Virus record (IMG/VR): IMGVR_UViG_3300042351_001110
Coordinates: 1-24,154 of that record
Reading direction: 5' to 3' (one strand)
Length of the DNA: 24,154 bases
From: a virus
The notes beneath the pieces are model-generated. The model had not been told where the DNA came from. It ran no database searches and worked only from the letters and a program-made list of their open reading frames with translations. Positions 1 to 23,786 of this stretch are shown here, in pieces. The position numbers and the translations under genes were made by a program. Numbering within the stretch: the stretch's first letter is position 1; each line of letters begins with the position of its first letter.

Positions 1-266
1 TTGCCGCATTTGGGGCATGTTAGTGGAATTTGTAAAGCTTTTTTAACTAAATCTAATTTAGATATGGTCATTTTAATGCCATTCTTTATGGTCCATTGCT
101 TACCATTTTCATCCCAAATATCACCTTCTTTATAGTCGATATTTTCTTTAGTATAACCTACTTGAGTTGCGATTTTATCGCCGTACTTTTTATTTACTAT
201 ATTTCTTACTCTTTGTACATCTCTTTCTCGGAACTCTTTTTTCAAAACGCTTTCGTTACCTATCAT
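1..266 (-). CDS. Partial hypothetical protein with C-terminal zinc-ribbon start (runs off left edge)
   Basis: An open frame begins with ATG at 266-264 and stays open to the window edge, giving the first 88 residues. The ATG overlaps the TGA of the upstream three-domain gene in an ATGA junction, which supports translational coupling and this start. The N-terminal half is charged and probably helical (KKEFRERDVQRVRNIVNKKY). It is followed by a small beta-rich stretch (EGDIWDENGKQWTIKNGIK). The visible part ends in a Cys-Pro-Lys-Cys-Gly knuckle, the first half of a likely zinc ribbon whose second Cys pair would lie outside the window. I do not recognise the family. It has the same base composition as its neighbours and appears to be the last visible gene of the accessory cluster. 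It lacks the MIKL-type N-terminus found on other members of that cluster. Confidence 0.8.
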   Translation of the reverse strand, partial: MIGNESVLKKEFRERDVQRVRNIVNKKYGDKIATQVGYTKENIDYKEGDIWDENGKQWTIKNGIKMTISKLDLVKKALQIPLTCPKCG

Positions 267-1651
267 AAACCTAGATCTTTTAGTTGTTGGATTGAATCGG
301 CAGCTGAGGTATGTAAAATACCAATACCTCCCGCTTCATTCCATCGTTGAATATTATCCGCTCTATCATCAATTAATATTGAATTAGATGATGCATATAA
401 TTGTTTTAATTCCGCTGATTTAAGTAATAATGGTGTACCGGGTATATTTTGTTCTACCCATTTTATTTTACCGGTTTTAGATGATTCTTCTCTTGAAGGA
501 GCTGAAAGTAATTTAGGATTATATCTTTTAATATATTCCCATAATTGTACTCCATCGCTCATCCAATTTAACCCAGTCCAAAATGACTCACCTGCTTTAG
601 AAATAGGTGCCCAAAAATCTTTATCACCCTTAACGTGATTTCCTTTAATATTTTTACCAGTTAATTGCTCATACCCATCTTCAAAGTCAACAAGAACACC
701 ATCCATATCGCAATAAATTTTGTATTGTGGTGTTTGTGCTTCGAATATCATAGGATTAATTTGTGCAAATTTTCTCATTATTTGTCCTGCTTTAGAATTT
801 GCCTCATTTTCAGTATCTGAACCTGTGGTTCCATCTAAATTTTGACCTTTTTGTTTTTGTGATAAGTGTACTAATTCGTGAGAAACAGTTCGGCAGATAT
901 CAGCCATATTGCGGTTACCCGTATAAACCCATATCTTATCATCCTGCGGACTATACAATCCCATCGACTTCATTTCCCTCGCCTTTTCCGTATCCTTACT
1001 TATCACTATCTTTCCCCCGCCACCCTCAATTCCCAACTCACGTAGGGTGAAGCTAATGAATTTCTTTAATAAATCCAAGTTTTCTTGACCTTCTTTTATT
1101 TCTTCTTTTTCTGTGTCACCCATTGTGTAACCTGCAGCGTCCATGAATTGTTTCACATCGATACCATCTGGTAGGTATTTTTGAATTAAATCTTCTTTTT
1201 TAGATTTGATTGCAATTCTGAAGTTAGTAGCATTTACATTATCGAACGTACCTGCATTGAATAATTCTGCATTCTTATATTTCTCATTAGAAAGAATAGA
1301 ATTGAAACGAGTAAATTCATCTTTACCAAATGCAGCTATAATTTTAGCTTCTGGGTTTGATGTAATTAAGTTATAGGTTTCTTTAACAGGATTTTCATTA
1401 GCAACTAAATAGTTAACGTTTCCTGGTAATATTGATTTATATAATTCCCATATAGCAACACTTTCATCTTTTGTAATTCCTTCACGTGTTTTAGGGGAAA
1501 TTAATATTTGAACCTCATCACACATATCTGCTAATTTCTTAACAACATTAAAGTGACCTTTATGTGGTGGTTTGAAAGCACCAGGAAATACACCGATGGT
1601 GTACTGGTCGTTTTCTAATAATTGCTGTGCTATGTATTGACCTAAATTCAT
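263..1651 (-). CDS. Three-domain fusion: NMN-adenylyltransferase-like / HExxH metallopeptidase / HAD 5'-nucleotidase-like
   Basis: Residues about 17-165 form a nucleotidyltransferase of the HxGH type. They carry GVFPGAFKPPHKGH (H30, H33) and a late NATNFRIAI segment that fits the family's C-terminal nucleotide-binding motif. Nicotinamide-mononucleotide adenylyltransferase is the best guess. Residues about 190-300 hold a zinc-metallopeptidase motif, SHELVH (H258, E259, H262), followed by TENEAN (E281/E283), which could supply a third ligand. Residues about 308-462 are a HAD phosphatase with CDMDGVLVDF (D315, D317) and ILIDDRADN (D428, D429), resembling 5'(3')-deoxyribonucleotidases. The ATG at 1651 overlaps the previous stop in a TAATG junction. 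The N-terminus (MNLGQYIAQQLLE) ends in L-L-E. I-K-E/G (187/188) and I-F-E/A (304/305) sit in the two linkers and could be prohead-protease sites. Domain assignments are from motifs; the exact substrates are inferred. Confidence 0.85.
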   Translation of the reverse strand: MNLGQYIAQQLLENDQYTIGVFPGAFKPPHKGHFNVVKKLADMCDEVQILISPKTREGITKDESVAIWELYKSILPGNVNYLVANENPVKETYNLITSNPEAKIIAAFGKDEFTRFNSILSNEKYKNAELFNAGTFDNVNATNFRIAIKSKKEDLIQKYLPDGIDVKQFMDAAGYTMGDTEKEEIKEGQENLDLLKKFISFTLRELGIEGGGGKIVISKDTEKAREMKSMGLYSPQDDKIWVYTGNRNMADICRTVSHELVHLSQKQKGQNLDGTTGSDTENEANSKAGQIMRKFAQINPMIFEAQTPQYKIYCDMDGVLVDFEDGYEQLTGKNIKGNHVKGDKDFWAPISKAGESFWTGLNWMSDGVQLWEYIKRYNPKLLSAPSREESSKTGKIKWVEQNIPGTPLLLKSAELKQLYASSNSILIDDRADNIQRWNEAGGIGILHTSAADSIQQLKDLGL

Positions 1652-2487
1652 TATTGTGCGAATGCTTTTACTTTACTTATAATTTCTTGTTCAGATAAAA
1701 CGTAATTTTTAATTTTATTATTAATATTACCAAATTCACGCTCCATCTGTTCTACTTGTTGTTTATATACTTCACTTTGTTTTTCTTTGGCCTTATCTTT
1801 TTTAGCTTGCTCTTCAGGTGATAATGGTTCTGTCGATTTAGTACCCAATGTTGATTTAAATGCGTCTTGATCTTGGTCAGTTAAATCGTTAAACCAATCA
1901 TATAATTTACCCGCTTTAACGGCCGAATTAAACCCGCTAATTTCTTTTGCGAACTCCTCATCAGGAGCTTGATACATAATAAAATTATCGCCTAACTTCG
2001 CTTTATACGTATCTATACTACCATATACCGAGTTCCAAGTAGATAATACAGCCATTTTAGGTACTTTACGTTCACGTTTAAAATTTCTTAAAAACGAAAC
2101 AATAGGATGAGCATAAACCATAATCATCATTACATCGTAATCTGGGTGTTGGTTTATTAATCCTGGTACTTCTTTGCGTCTATATAATCCACCAAATAAT
2201 TTAGCAGCATTAGATGCGGTAGTATCCCAAATAAATGATTTATGATTAGCTAAAGCATCAGGAACATCTTTATCATCAACTTGCATTGATGCTTGCATTA
2301 AATTATTATAGATAGGACTGTCCTTATCTTCAACGTATTTGTCTGGGTTTATAATTTCAAAACCAGGAGCAGAACTTTTAATTTTATTAATTAAAGTAGA
2401 TTTACCTGACCCAGCTCCACCAGCCATGATAATCATCTTATCTTTAGGTGCCATAGCTTCTTTTAATATGTCTATTAGTTTAATCAT
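1651..2487 (-). CDS. P-loop kinase, zeta-toxin-like, with MIKLIDILKE leader
   Basis: A 278-residue protein. It begins MIKLIDILKEAMAPKDK and then has a Walker A motif, MAGGAGSGKST (G23 to T31, with K29 and S30). Downstream, INPDKYVED (about 46-54) and the RERKVPKMAVLSTW segment (about 138-151) match the layout of zeta-toxin and related P-loop kinases, where the Asp and Arg residues serve substrate phosphorylation. The substrate is unknown; UDP-N-acetylglucosamine is used by zeta toxins, but that cannot be read from the sequence. Residues about 215-255 are Lys/Glu-rich and probably helical or coiled coil. No antitoxin-like neighbour is visible, so a simple toxin-antitoxin role is unlikely. The first ten residues are nearly identical to those of three other proteins here, and L-K-E/A at 10/11 matches a T4 gp21-type cleavage site. 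It lies 2 nt after the previous stop. Confidence 0.8.
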   Translation of the reverse strand: MIKLIDILKEAMAPKDKMIIMAGGAGSGKSTLINKIKSSAPGFEIINPDKYVEDKDSPIYNNLMQASMQVDDKDVPDALANHKSFIWDTTASNAAKLFGGLYRRKEVPGLINQHPDYDVMMIMVYAHPIVSFLRNFKRERKVPKMAVLSTWNSVYGSIDTYKAKLGDNFIMYQAPDEEFAKEISGFNSAVKAGKLYDWFNDLTDQDQDAFKSTLGTKSTEPLSPEEQAKKDKAKEKQSEVYKQQVEQMEREFGNINNKIKNYVLSEQEIISKVKAFAQ

Positions 2488-2489
2488 TC

Positions 2490-3023
2490 TTATTTTTTAA
2501 AAAATCTTGAAAAAATTGATTTATTAGATTCAGGTGGTTTGTTTAAATAAATGTATCCATAAGAATCTTTTTTGTATTTCCAATCAGGTAGATTTTTTTG
2601 AACATATATTTGATATAATTTTTCTCTTGCTTGATCGTCTGTATTCTTCTTTACTGGTTCGTAAGATATTTCTACTAATTCAGGATGTTGATTTATATAT
2701 TCTTTTAATATTTTAATTACAGTTGCCATTACTTGATATTGCACTCCTTTATTAGTTCTTGAAGTATCACCACCTTGATATTTATCTGTTTTTAATCCAA
2801 ACATTATACTCATACCTGTATTTCCCTTCTTATAATCTTTCTTAGAATCTAAATCTATATCTATATCACTTATAAACATACTTACTACATACGTATCTTC
2901 TCCTATATTAAACTCATATTTTTCAACAGTTTCATATTTACTCTTTCCGGAGTCTGTGTGAGTATAAGGTACAGCCATTGACGCGTCACCAATTTCATTC
3001 AATATATCAATTAACTTAATCAT
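2490..3023 (-). CDS. Hypothetical protein with MIKLIDILNE leader
   Basis: A 177-residue protein I do not recognise. It opens with MIKLIDILNE, the leader shared with its neighbours, with L-N-E as a possible cleavage site after residue 10. The body has an alternating beta-strand pattern (YEFNIGEDTYVVSMFISDIDIDLD, residues about 36-59), then a conserved-looking helix (QVMATVIKILKEYINQHPEL, about 97-116). Further on are a mixed charged region and a basic tail (SIFSRFFKK). No catalytic motif is evident. Its ATG forms an ATGA junction with the TGA of the nucleotidyltransferase gene upstream, so the two are probably translated together. The context suggests a co-packaged or co-acting protein of the same accessory set. 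Confidence 0.75.
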   Translation of the reverse strand: MIKLIDILNEIGDASMAVPYTHTDSGKSKYETVEKYEFNIGEDTYVVSMFISDIDIDLDSKKDYKKGNTGMSIMFGLKTDKYQGGDTSRTNKGVQYQVMATVIKILKEYINQHPELVEISYEPVKKNTDDQAREKLYQIYVQKNLPDWKYKKDSYGYIYLNKPPESNKSIFSRFFKK

Positions 3024-3979
3024 TTCTTGTATTGTAATAAATTTGAATTATCTGGGAGATATTTTCCTGTTAATTGTAATCTTTCCTGATTATCAATCCA
3101 AAATTGTTGTAGATCATTTGGTATATCTGCTCTAGTTAAGTCTAATATTCTTAAATACTTACTTATAACATTTTTATAATCTTCTTCATTTAAATTAGTC
3201 TTTAAAAAACTAATCAATTTATGATAATCATTTAATATATCAGGTGTAACTTCAAACTTAAATAATCTATTTAACAAAGCAGCAGCCTCTTCAGGATTTT
3301 TTGCTTCATTTTCTCTAGTTTCTTTATTAATAACTCCAATAGCGTGATTGAATATTCTACCTTTAAATGAAAATAAAGTCAATATTAATTGGGTACGATG
3401 CAATCCCTTAACATTATCTTGATACATGTTTGAATGATAACTAAATCTTAACCAATCTGGGCTTCCAATATTAATGTCCGCTTGAACATTTTTATTTAAT
3501 TTTTGCCCTTGAGGGTTATATTGAGGTATGCTACAAAATATTGTACCTTTACCTGATGATTTAGTATCAACTTCTATTTCACTAGAATTTTCATCTAATT
3601 TATTTGATATCAATTCTACCATTGCACGCAATGATGTTTGTTCCGGAGTTGCTGTTCTAGCTCTTTGGGTAAATAATTGAAATAATTCATTATATTTTCC
3701 CTCATCTACTCCCCAACCTTTAAAATCAGGTAAGTTTTTATTATATAAGTTATGTTCATCGTATGATAAATCAATATCACCCGATACATTTTTCTTACCA
3801 ACTGATCCTAATCTTTCAAATGCTTTAAATGTATCCTTCTTTTTAGGAAAAATACGAGACATTTCATCTACAAATTTTTCTATTGTAGGTTCGATATTAG
3901 CCTTGTCGATTGGTGATGTAGCGTCGAATACGTTACCACCTTCAACAATTAGTTTAGCTATGTCGATTAATTTAATCAT
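3020..3979 (-). CDS. Polymerase-beta-type nucleotidyltransferase with MIKLIDIAK leader
   Basis: With the ATG at 3979 the protein has 319 residues. The open frame extends upstream to a TTG at 4015, but that stretch contains a strong hairpin, and the ATG restores the MIKLIDI leader seen on three neighbours, so I chose the ATG. Residues 55-72 carry the nucleotidyltransferase signature: G58-S59, then SGDIDL with D68 and D70. A third likely metal ligand, D168, lies in VQADINIG. This set of three acids is the classic hG[GS]...DxD...D pattern of the polymerase-beta superfamily. The substrate is unknown; members add nucleotides to tRNA, proteins or antibiotics. I-V-E/G at 13/14 is a candidate leader cleavage site. 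The stop overlaps the next gene in an ATGA junction. Confidence 0.8.
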   Translation of the reverse strand: MIKLIDIAKLIVEGGNVFDATSPIDKANIEPTIEKFVDEMSRIFPKKKDTFKAFERLGSVGKKNVSGDIDLSYDEHNLYNKNLPDFKGWGVDEGKYNELFQLFTQRARTATPEQTSLRAMVELISNKLDENSSEIEVDTKSSGKGTIFCSIPQYNPQGQKLNKNVQADINIGSPDWLRFSYHSNMYQDNVKGLHRTQLILTLFSFKGRIFNHAIGVINKETRENEAKNPEEAAALLNRLFKFEVTPDILNDYHKLISFLKTNLNEEDYKNVISKYLRILDLTRADIPNDLQQFWIDNQERLQLTGKYLPDNSNLLQYKK

Positions 3980-7686: not shown

Positions 7687-8421
7687 TTAAAGCATTGCTT
7701 TAATTAAATCAATATGTCCTTCTCCTGCAGTAGCTATTACTTTATAACCTCTACTTTCATACTTCTTTAGTTTTGATAGTAAGTTTTCATCTCTAGCTTC
7801 ATTAAAAGCATCAGCTACCTTAGCTACTTTTGTATACTTATCTCCATAATCTGCTGGAAAAGAGAGTCTATACAAGGTATCGTAGTCTTTAGCTGTTGGT
7901 TCGTATAAATTATCTGAAAGGGGTAATTCTGCTTCTTGTGCCGCTACTTTCAAAAACTTAATACCTTCTGTACTTAAATAATCTTCTGGAGTAAAGTCTG
8001 CTATTGATTGACCTTGTAGAATATTCTGTCCGACCATACTTGCCCAATTAGCTGCTAATATTTTACTATGAGAAAGACCTGTTTTCTCTTTTTGTATTTT
8101 GTATAAAAAAGATTGATCATTCATTACATTTAAATCGGAACCATCCCATGAATCATTAACTAGGTTTTTAAAGTAAGAACTTAACTCATCATAAATCATT
8201 TCTTGCTCACTACCTGCTACATATTTATTATTATCATCCCCACCTTCTCCCATAAATACTACCTTATCATCAGGTGAAAAATGCTTCTTAACATAATCAA
8301 CAACTTGCTTAGCATCTGATTTACTATGATGCTCAACACCAAAAATAATAGAATTACCAATAAGGAGTTGGTTAATTTCTCTTAAAGCAATTTCTTTTAA
8401 TATGTCGGATAACTTAATCAT
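7687..8421 (-). CDS. MIKLSDILKE-leader protein, possibly TIKI/TraB/ChaN-like
   Basis: A 244-residue protein starting MIKLSDILKE, the same leader as three genes at the left end of the window although 3.7 kb or more away from them. L-K-E/I and L-R-E/I at residues 10 and 15 are possible cleavage points. The remainder has a pattern reminiscent of the TIKI/TraB/ChaN superfamily. An early strand ends in GVEHHSKSD (E30, H31), a second strand VVFMGEGG (E59) follows, and a late segment has NEARDENLLSKLKKY and VIATAGEGHIDLI (R210, H236). Members are metal-dependent proteases or haem-binding proteins. This assignment rests on a few motifs and is tentative. It follows a small fibre-like gene with a TAATG junction, so it is translated with structural genes, which fits a virion-associated product. 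Confidence 0.7.
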   Translation of the reverse strand: MIKLSDILKEIALREINQLLIGNSIIFGVEHHSKSDAKQVVDYVKKHFSPDDKVVFMGEGGDDNNKYVAGSEQEMIYDELSSYFKNLVNDSWDGSDLNVMNDQSFLYKIQKEKTGLSHSKILAANWASMVGQNILQGQSIADFTPEDYLSTEGIKFLKVAAQEAELPLSDNLYEPTAKDYDTLYRLSFPADYGDKYTKVAKVADAFNEARDENLLSKLKKYESRGYKVIATAGEGHIDLIKAML

Positions 8422-23023: not shown

Positions 23024-23433
23024 TATTCAAAGTTAATTTGTATTTCATCTGCTTCACCTGAGATCTTCATACTGTATTCAACTTTTACGTTTACTATATG
23101 TTCATCAGGTGTTGGGGTAATAATTACATCCTCTAAATTTACTTCAGGAATAAACATTGATATACCCATTCTTATATTATTTTCAATTTTATTAACATTT
23201 TCATCATTAATAAAATCAAATATGGATTTTTTTATATCACAACCAAATTCAGGGTTTTCAATTCGTTCGCCTTTATTAGTTAATAAAAGGTTAATTAAAT
23301 TATATTTTACCTGTTCTTTAGTACTATATGTACTTTTAAAAGCAGAAGGTTTATTAAAGGGCAAACCAACACCGATTGCAATATTTTTTTGCAAATCCCT
23401 AGGATCTATACGATATGTTTTAGGTACTGCCAT
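23023..23433 (-). CDS. gp25: Baseplate wedge protein gp25-like
   Basis: A 136-residue protein close to T4 gp25 (132), a GPW/gp25 family member. The typical core is present: YNLINLLLTNKGERIENPEF at about 45-64, then GCDIKKSIFDFI and the closing strands. The ERIENPEFG stretch is the family hallmark and corresponds to the EPR-type motif. gp25 initiates sheath polymerisation on the baseplate and forms part of the inner wedge with gp6 and gp53. The ATG forms a TAATG junction with the preceding gene, and an unusually strong ribosome-binding site precedes it. Confidence 0.92.
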   Translation of the reverse strand: MAVPKTYRIDPRDLQKNIAIGVGLPFNKPSAFKSTYSTKEQVKYNLINLLLTNKGERIENPEFGCDIKKSIFDFINDENVNKIENNIRMGISMFIPEVNLEDVIITPTPDEHIVNVKVEYSMKISGEADEIQINFE

Positions 23434-23786
23434 TATCCTCCTTGTAGCATTTGATTCATTTCAGAACGAGTAAGGTTAGAAGCGGTATCATTGATAAACG
23501 CAGCAAATGGATTATCACTTGTTGGGTCTACTTTTAATTGTGTTTGAGGTTTGGCTCCTGCTGGCATTCCAAACATTTCGGCCATCTTATTACTCATTTG
23601 AGATCTCATACCAACATTATGTACATCCCCGCTATCAAATGACATCGAGCGACCTTCAGTAAGTGGTTGAGTTGTTTGTGGTGTTACACCACTCTTTAAT
23701 TGTTCTAACAGCATTAAGCCAAGTTCTTCACGAACTGCTTCACGTACTGCTTCTTTAATTAACGATTTAAATTGTTTAGCTTCCAT
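23433..23786 (-). CDS. Small helical protein upstream of gp25
   Basis: A 117-residue protein not recognised as a named family. Residues 1-32 form an amphipathic helix, with KSLIKEAVREAVREELG repeating the KEAVREAV pattern. The middle is Gln/Thr/Pro-rich and looks flexible. The C-terminal part, about 88-117 (SDNPFAAFINDTASNLTRSEM), is likely helical. I-K-E/A at 12/13 matches a prohead-protease site, but the leader differs from the MIKL proteins, so this may be coincidence. It overlaps gp25 by 1 nt and supplies its ribosome-binding site. A baseplate or assembly role is suggested only by position. Confidence 0.75.
   Translation of the reverse strand: MEAKQFKSLIKEAVREAVREELGLMLLEQLKSGVTPQTTQPLTEGRSMSFDSGDVHNVGMRSQMSNKMAEMFGMPAGAKPQTQLKVDPTSDNPFAAFINDTASNLTRSEMNQMLQGG
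23437..23443 (-). promoter_or_regulatory. Strong Shine-Dalgarno site for gp25
   Basis: AAGGAGG in the minus-strand sense, 3 nt before the ATG. It is built from the Gly-Gly codons at the end of the preceding gene. It stands out because the other genes here have AT-rich leaders with no clear Shine-Dalgarno sequence. The spacing is short. Confidence 0.6.

Follow-up and report, generated by a model that had tools for sequence, protein, structure and literature searches.

A three-enzyme phage protein with predicted prohead protease sites in its linkers may be a packaged polyprotein

The viral DNA analysed here (IMG/VR record IMGVR_UViG_3300042351_001110, positions 1 to 24,154; this whole stretch of 24,154 nucleotides is referred to as the window) encodes a 462-residue protein in which a short leader is followed by three enzyme domains. 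We consider it probable, if far from certain, that this protein is a cargo polyprotein of a marine T4-like phage that is packaged and then cut in its linkers by the prohead protease. Packaging and cleavage are both inferred, and no cleavage product has been seen. What could be demonstrated are the reading frame, its domains, the positions of the motifs, the predicted disorder of the linkers, the conservation of the sites, their leader context and a motif-specific retention of such sites in the linkers of fused proteins. The last four of these support the proposal, made in a preliminary description of the window, that a packaged polyprotein is cut into three enzymes, the cuts themselves remaining an inference. 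The features of the protein are as follows (slashes mark putative cuts).

263 to 1651, minus strand: three-domain reading frame of 462 residues, comprising a leader, a HIGH-type nucleotidyltransferase, an HExxH zincin-like peptidase and a HAD 5'(3')-deoxyribonucleotidase
1613 to 1651, minus strand: N-terminal leader MNLGQYIAQQLLE (residues 1-13), capsid-targeting-sequence-like, with a predicted cut after E13
1118 to 1612, minus strand: HIGH superfamily nucleotidyltransferase domain (HKGH at 30-33, NATNFR at 140-145; PF01467; PHROG 395/3462)
1079 to 1117, minus strand: linker 1, disordered, with the predicted prohead protease site IKE187/G (triplet at 1091-1099); pLDDT below 50 at residues 179-189; conserved LKE
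755 to 1078, minus strand: HExxH zincin-like peptidase domain (HELVH at 258-262; candidate third zinc ligand E within ENEAN at 281-285; weak DUF6782 match)
725 to 754, minus strand: linker 2, with the predicted prohead protease site IFE304/A (triplet at 740-748); pLDDT below 50 at residues 304-308; I(F/Y)E conserved
266 to 739, minus strand: HAD 5'(3')-deoxyribonucleotidase domain (DMDGV at 315-319, DDRADN at 428-433; PHROG 2643, E 8.5e-30; Z 15.9 to 3bwv)

The reading frame described earlier is real and lies on the minus strand, the plus strand across 263-1651 being interrupted by many stop codons. Its first domain (residues 14-178), whose PF01467 score fell just below the cut-off, has a PPAT/NadD/NadM-like fold according to structure comparison (Z about 13-14). 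This domain had been called NMN-adenylyltransferase-like; the HIGH fold and motif hold, but specificity for NMN is not established, because the solved structures of PPAT, NadD, NadM and NadR match it about equally well and do not separate these activities. The other two assignments, an HExxH peptidase and a HAD nucleotidase, were borne out, the former by HELVH and ENEAN in the sequence only and the latter by DMDGV, the PHROG 2643 match and the similarity to 3bwv. We read residues 192-299 as a zincin-like peptidase on the strength of the HExxH motif and the downstream Glu, without assigning a family; the predicted structure places helices at 249-267 and 279-298. The HAD domain occupies residues 305-462, and a Pfam NT5C match was obtained in 17 of the 36 family members. 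With two or more distinct enzymatic domains, including a zincin HExxH domain, in one chain, the protein satisfies the domain criterion for polyvalent proteins.

Capsid-targeting leaders are known from T4, in which gp21 cuts at (L/I)xE (PMC9026906). On recount, the 462-residue protein contained the six (I/L)xE triplets listed in the preliminary description at the same positions (LLE/N at 13, IWE/L at 69, IKE/G at 187, LRE/L at 205, IFE/A at 304 and LWE/Y at 372), and it is correct that only those at 187 and 304 are followed by Ala or Gly. Their number is at chance level (5.5 ± 2.1 in sequence shuffles). When the 462-residue sequence was considered alone, the occurrence of a triplet followed by Ala or Gly in both linkers had a P value of 5e-4 in a post hoc test, and that of any (I/L)xE in both linkers a P value of 0.03. 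Because the triplet count equals the shuffle level and the Ala/Gly test is post hoc, the evidence from the single sequence is merely suggestive; the strong evidence comes from relatives. As a rule of specificity the Ala/Gly criterion fails, since leader sites in relatives tolerate many following residues: the residue after 184 distinct leader sites was E in 39, A in 30, V in 21, I in 18, S in 12, D in 10, K in 9 and G in 8, among other residues. A filter for Ala or Gly was rejected, P1' being highly variable at leader sites and the filter being unneeded. The LLE at residue 13, given only as an additional remark in the preliminary description, is present and conserved and has to be ranked as a third site equal to those at 187 and 304.

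An AlphaFold model of the protein, built on a 36-sequence alignment (mean pLDDT 82), fell below a pLDDT of 50 only at residues 7-13, 179-189 and 304-308, which contain LLE13, IKE187 and IFE304, respectively, whereas the triplets at 69, 205 and 372 lie within ordered helices. The probability that three of the six triplets fall inside the 23 of 462 residues with pLDDT below 50 is 0.002. As regards the exposure of the sites, all three candidates thus lie in the only low-confidence linkers or tails of the model. Residues 1-13 resemble a T4 capsid-targeting leader, and by their length and (L/I)xE end they satisfy the T4-type criterion of a 10-19-residue leader.

The conservation of the sites was tabulated in a set of seven close relatives at 78-86% identity, among which L007 covers only residues 164-462, together with six that are more distant; the full-length relatives compared reach down to about 40% identity. 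Site 13 is (L/I)xE in every homologue that covers the position, and site 304 is I(F/Y)E in all homologues of the table. At site 187, LKE is present in all close relatives and in L008 and L009, LTE in L010 and L011, and IKN in L012 and L013, where the region carries large insertions and is badly aligned; the replacement of I by L leaves the motif intact. In contrast, the triplets at 69 and 372 are retained in none and one of the homologues, respectively. Thus, two of the candidate sites are kept wherever they are covered and the third nearly everywhere. Two of the outcomes named in the preliminary description as refuting, sites buried inside domains and sites lost from close homologues, were not observed. 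Up to a divergence of about 50%, the P3 and P1 residues persist, but P2, P1' and the length of the linkers vary. Outside this table, L076 has IFQQ at the position equivalent to 304. The conservation of IFE304 could be partly structural, because this triplet also closes the peptidase domain at its C-terminus (the L014 protein ends with IYE).

Several genes in the window encode proteins with leaders of the same kind:

1651 to 2487, minus strand: P-loop kinase (AAA_33/zeta-toxin-like), upstream; leader MIKLIDILKE/A and a C-terminal VLSE/Q tail
2490 to 3023, minus strand: DUF6934 protein; leader MIKLIDILNE/IGDA; an internal polyprotein domain in L028 and L066
3020 to 3979, minus strand: Pol-beta-type nucleotidyltransferase-like protein (motif only); leader MIKLIDIAKLIVE/GGNVFDATSPI
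7687 to 8421, minus strand: unknown protein; leader MIKLSDILKE/I
23433 to 23786, minus strand: small protein MEAKQFKSLIKE/AVREAVREELGLMLLE/ with a leader-like start

The 3020-3979 protein has an ortholog in Flavobacterium phage immuto (L103 4309-5217) that lacks a leader and begins with M-GGNVFSSTAPI, so that the start of the immuto gene coincides with the predicted mature N-terminus of the window protein. The C-terminal tail of the kinase, VLSE/QEIISKVKAFAQ, recalls the C-terminal processing of T4 Alt.

No protease gene was found in the window's own record, because this is a 24-kb fragment. Of 10 relatives, 7 encode the prohead protease PF03420 (E 1e-25 to 1e-33), among them the close relatives G001, G002 and G009; the first two of these are 160 and 171 kb long, with E values of about 1e-32. 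In G001 the protease adjoins a scaffold with many (I/L)xE triplets and a capsid protein that has LLE/G and LLE/N close to the N-terminus. The head half of this genome has a leader on 15 of its 56 reading frames, versus 3 of 114 elsewhere (Fisher P = 5e-6). The gene of the 462-residue protein therefore fulfils a further criterion for T4-type internal head proteins, namely a position in the head or late region among other leader-bearing genes. Other head-region proteins of G001 contain embedded leaders with an apparent former start Met (IYE/MKLNDIIE/QGVLNE/V and IQE/MKSNINEIIRMQQLAGIITE/V). A second recurring motif, NEI.RMQ.LAGI, was noticed in G001 (L086; 113137-114270, 114417-115928 and 118940-119617): the scaffold has it at its C-terminus (NEQISRFQKLAGITKY), a further head-region protein at its N-terminus, and a fused protein internally. 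This motif is possibly a second targeting or core-binding signal.

A homologue of the first domain has been found in virions. The cytidylyltransferase GC190 of S-SM1 was detected in purified virions by mass spectrometry (PMC3037559); it starts with MKKFSAFLNE/A, and its nucleotidyltransferase domain matches a profile of the family studied here (i-E 6e-9). NMNAT-like proteins were also detected in virions of S-SCSM1, S-CBWM1 and S-CREM2, co-purification not being excluded by the authors (PMC9602691, PMC10665884). These cyanomyovirus proteins are alike to the present one in the HIGH nucleotidyltransferase, homologous in S-SM1, the leader found there and the detection in virions. Unlike in the window, the S-SM1 protein has no fusion to a peptidase or HAD domain, and its processing has not been reported.

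Among 78 related loci, the HAD mostly has a downstream gene to itself, which starts with a leader that ends in (I/L)xE. Such standalone HADs begin with MYKLTDLYKQIKE/E or MIKLLDILKE/A just ahead of QYKIYCDMDG, one example being MIKLLDILKE/AEEQQYKIYCDMDG. In L014 the nucleotidyltransferase-peptidase gene ends at the equivalent of E304 (RKNPQIYE followed by a stop), and the separate HAD without its leader would start with AEEQQYKIYC, close to the AQTPQYKIYC of the window. An (I/L)xE within 22 residues before the HAD core was present in 12 of 12 fused and 40 of 42 separate versions (background 13-17%); before the start of the nucleotidyltransferase it was present in 4 of 4 internal and 37 of 40 N-terminal copies (background 21-23%). 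Internal copies may retain the entire leader (LFKGLVKELLSGFIAE/E versus N-terminal MNSLVKELIQPLLE/K or E). In addition, the DUF6934 neighbour of the window gene, with its start MIKLIDILNE/IGDA, recurs internally in L028 and L066 as LNE/VGEA. Fusion of genes that had each borne a leader is the probable origin of the linkers, the downstream leader or its cleavage site having become the linker.

We also conducted an unbiased fusion scan of the 1324 reading frames of all loci, in which a short reading frame of one phage was aligned inside a longer one of another. In families whose standalone version carries a leader, DUF6934 among them, 51 of 74 distinct junctions had (I/L)xE near the aligned position, which is 2.9 times the 17.8 expected by position and well above the 25.6 ± 3.6 of composition-preserving shuffles (z = 7.0). 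The control motifs (I/L)x followed by D, K, Q, N or S, (V/A/F/M)xE, (K/R)xE and Ex(I/L) gave no excess beyond composition. Since the loci are interrelated and families differ in size, the z-score overstates independence; when averaged by family (26 families), the junction rates were 0.75 observed versus 0.23 expected. Families without a detected leader had a weaker (I/L)xE excess, part of which is owed to a tail protein family in which IYE is conserved.

These data bear on two alternatives in which the linkers are not cut. In one of them the protein is an ordinary cytoplasmic multi-enzyme fusion that is never packaged and in which the (I/L)xE triplets occur by chance, as would agree with their number being that of shuffled sequences; with the disorder, the conservation, the leader context, the outcome of the fusion scan and the presence of a homologous nucleotidyltransferase in virions against it, we find this highly unlikely. 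In the other the protein is packaged but loses its leader only, so that the mature cargo is a single three-domain chain and the linker triplets are relics of gene fusion. The leaders of the standalone genes are compatible with this, as are the packaging of P1 DarB at its large size (250 kDa) and of the N4 vRNAP unprocessed (PMC9024508, PMC5512222). We nevertheless regard it as unlikely, given that P3 and P1 persist over a divergence at which P2, P1' and linker length have changed, that the enrichment at junctions is specific to the protease motif, and that gp21-type enzymes demand little beyond this short motif (PMC9026906).

Further fused proteins were observed in the related loci. A 430-residue reading frame (L012 11578-12870) has three consecutive internal junctions, NLDE/S, KINE/I and DLDE/Y, each of which aligns to a separate reading frame elsewhere, two of these starting with MIKL leaders. 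In a 1306-residue polyprotein (L066:1485-5405), Pfam recognises DUF6934, part of a RegB-like endoribonuclease and an entire Fe/Mn superoxide dismutase; the chain also has a nucleotidyltransferase at its N-terminus and contains two HExxH motifs, and (I/L)xE triplets lie between its domains. The polyproteins L032:7059-10004 and immuto L103:5219-7942 open with a segment whose motif (GS...DIDLIV) marks it as a DNA-polymerase-beta-like nucleotidyltransferase; behind it come a HIGH nucleotidyltransferase, a peptidase and a second HEIEH motif. The immuto protein is annotated as NMN adenylyltransferase only. Flavobacterium phage immuto thus has a 907-residue nucleotidyltransferase polyprotein and, besides it, a HAD with the leader MKKVMGNLADLLLE/E; virion proteomics papers on this phage were not found in the literature search. 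In a model of the 981-residue L032 polyprotein, 7 of 13 sites fell in the 29% of residues that are disordered, and the expected linker sites IAE303, IQE625, LNE633 and LNE781 were in low-confidence stretches, but this gives only weak support because the confidence of the model is low (mean pLDDT 65.7).

Polyvalent proteins are multi-domain packaged proteins in which the zincin is a hub domain, and their self-cutting by the zincin has been proposed (Iyer et al. 2017, PMC5512222). The embedded HExxH peptidase, in which HELVH and the downstream Glu are intact, could by analogy cut its own polyprotein. This seems barely credible to us, as the linker motif fits the specificity of a separate gp21, the same motif ends leaders on proteins without an evident peptidase, and it is also retained at the junctions of proteins that lack an evident HExxH domain, such as the 430-residue protein of L012.

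If the prohead protease makes the cuts, as we prefer to think, the pattern of the leader and its gene context suggest that MNLGQYIAQQLLE would direct the whole chain into the prohead core in the manner of a T4 capsid-targeting sequence. At head maturation, a gp21-type protease recognising (L/I)xE would cut after E13, E187 and E304, as inferred from modelled disorder and conservation. The products would be three mature enzymes, a HIGH nucleotidyltransferase, a zincin-like peptidase and a deoxyribonucleotidase, with predicted ends that match the separate enzymes of relatives. It is a matter of speculation that these might stay with the DNA, be injected early in infection and then alter the pools of nucleotides or NAD, or have host proteins as their targets.

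Parts of this scheme have precedents. The T4 proteins IPI, IPII, IPIII and Alt likewise have a short helical N-terminal leader ending in (I/L)xE, a protease of the gp21 family (here found in relatives), genes in the head region and a role as cargo (PMC9026906); however, each internal protein is small, stands alone and is cut a single time close to the N-terminus (Alt is cut at the C-terminus too), whereas here one chain carries three enzymes and sites in the linkers between them. Polyvalent proteins of phages and conjugative elements similarly contain several enzymatic domains, including a zincin-like HExxH domain, and are thought to be packaged and injected (PMC5512222), but autoproteolysis by the zincin was proposed for them, while the leaders and linkers described here bear the motif of a separate prohead protease. 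The head ejection proteins of phiKZ, SPN3US and 201phi2-1 are also cut after Glu by a distant gp21 relative, gp175/gp245 (PMC5694885, PMC9026906); there the motif is S/A-x-E, and propeptides are removed without enzymes being freed from one chain. Capsid-targeting leaders, gp21 specificity, polyvalent proteins and virion NMNAT-like proteins are thus known already. What appears to be new is their combination, cargo polyproteins whose linkers are retained leaders or prohead protease sites; our search, which was limited to the open-access literature, yielded no paper in which T4-like phages have cargo polyproteins that the prohead protease cuts.

We lean towards the view that this is a general strategy of marine and freshwater T4-like phages, in which fused leaders serve as protease-cut linkers and one head maturation step frees many enzymes in the capsid, including nucleotidyltransferases, a RegB-like RNase, superoxide dismutase, peptidases and nucleotidases. 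If this is true, phage heads would be supplied with enzymes by way of polyproteins that the prohead protease matures, a parallel among dsDNA phages to viral polyprotein processing, and two separate ideas, the capsid-targeting sequences of T4 and the polyvalent proteins, would be joined. A leader together with (I/L)xE in the linkers would then be a sequence rule that predicts, for the many uncharacterised proteins of abundant aquatic phages, which ones are packaged and injected and where their mature ends lie.
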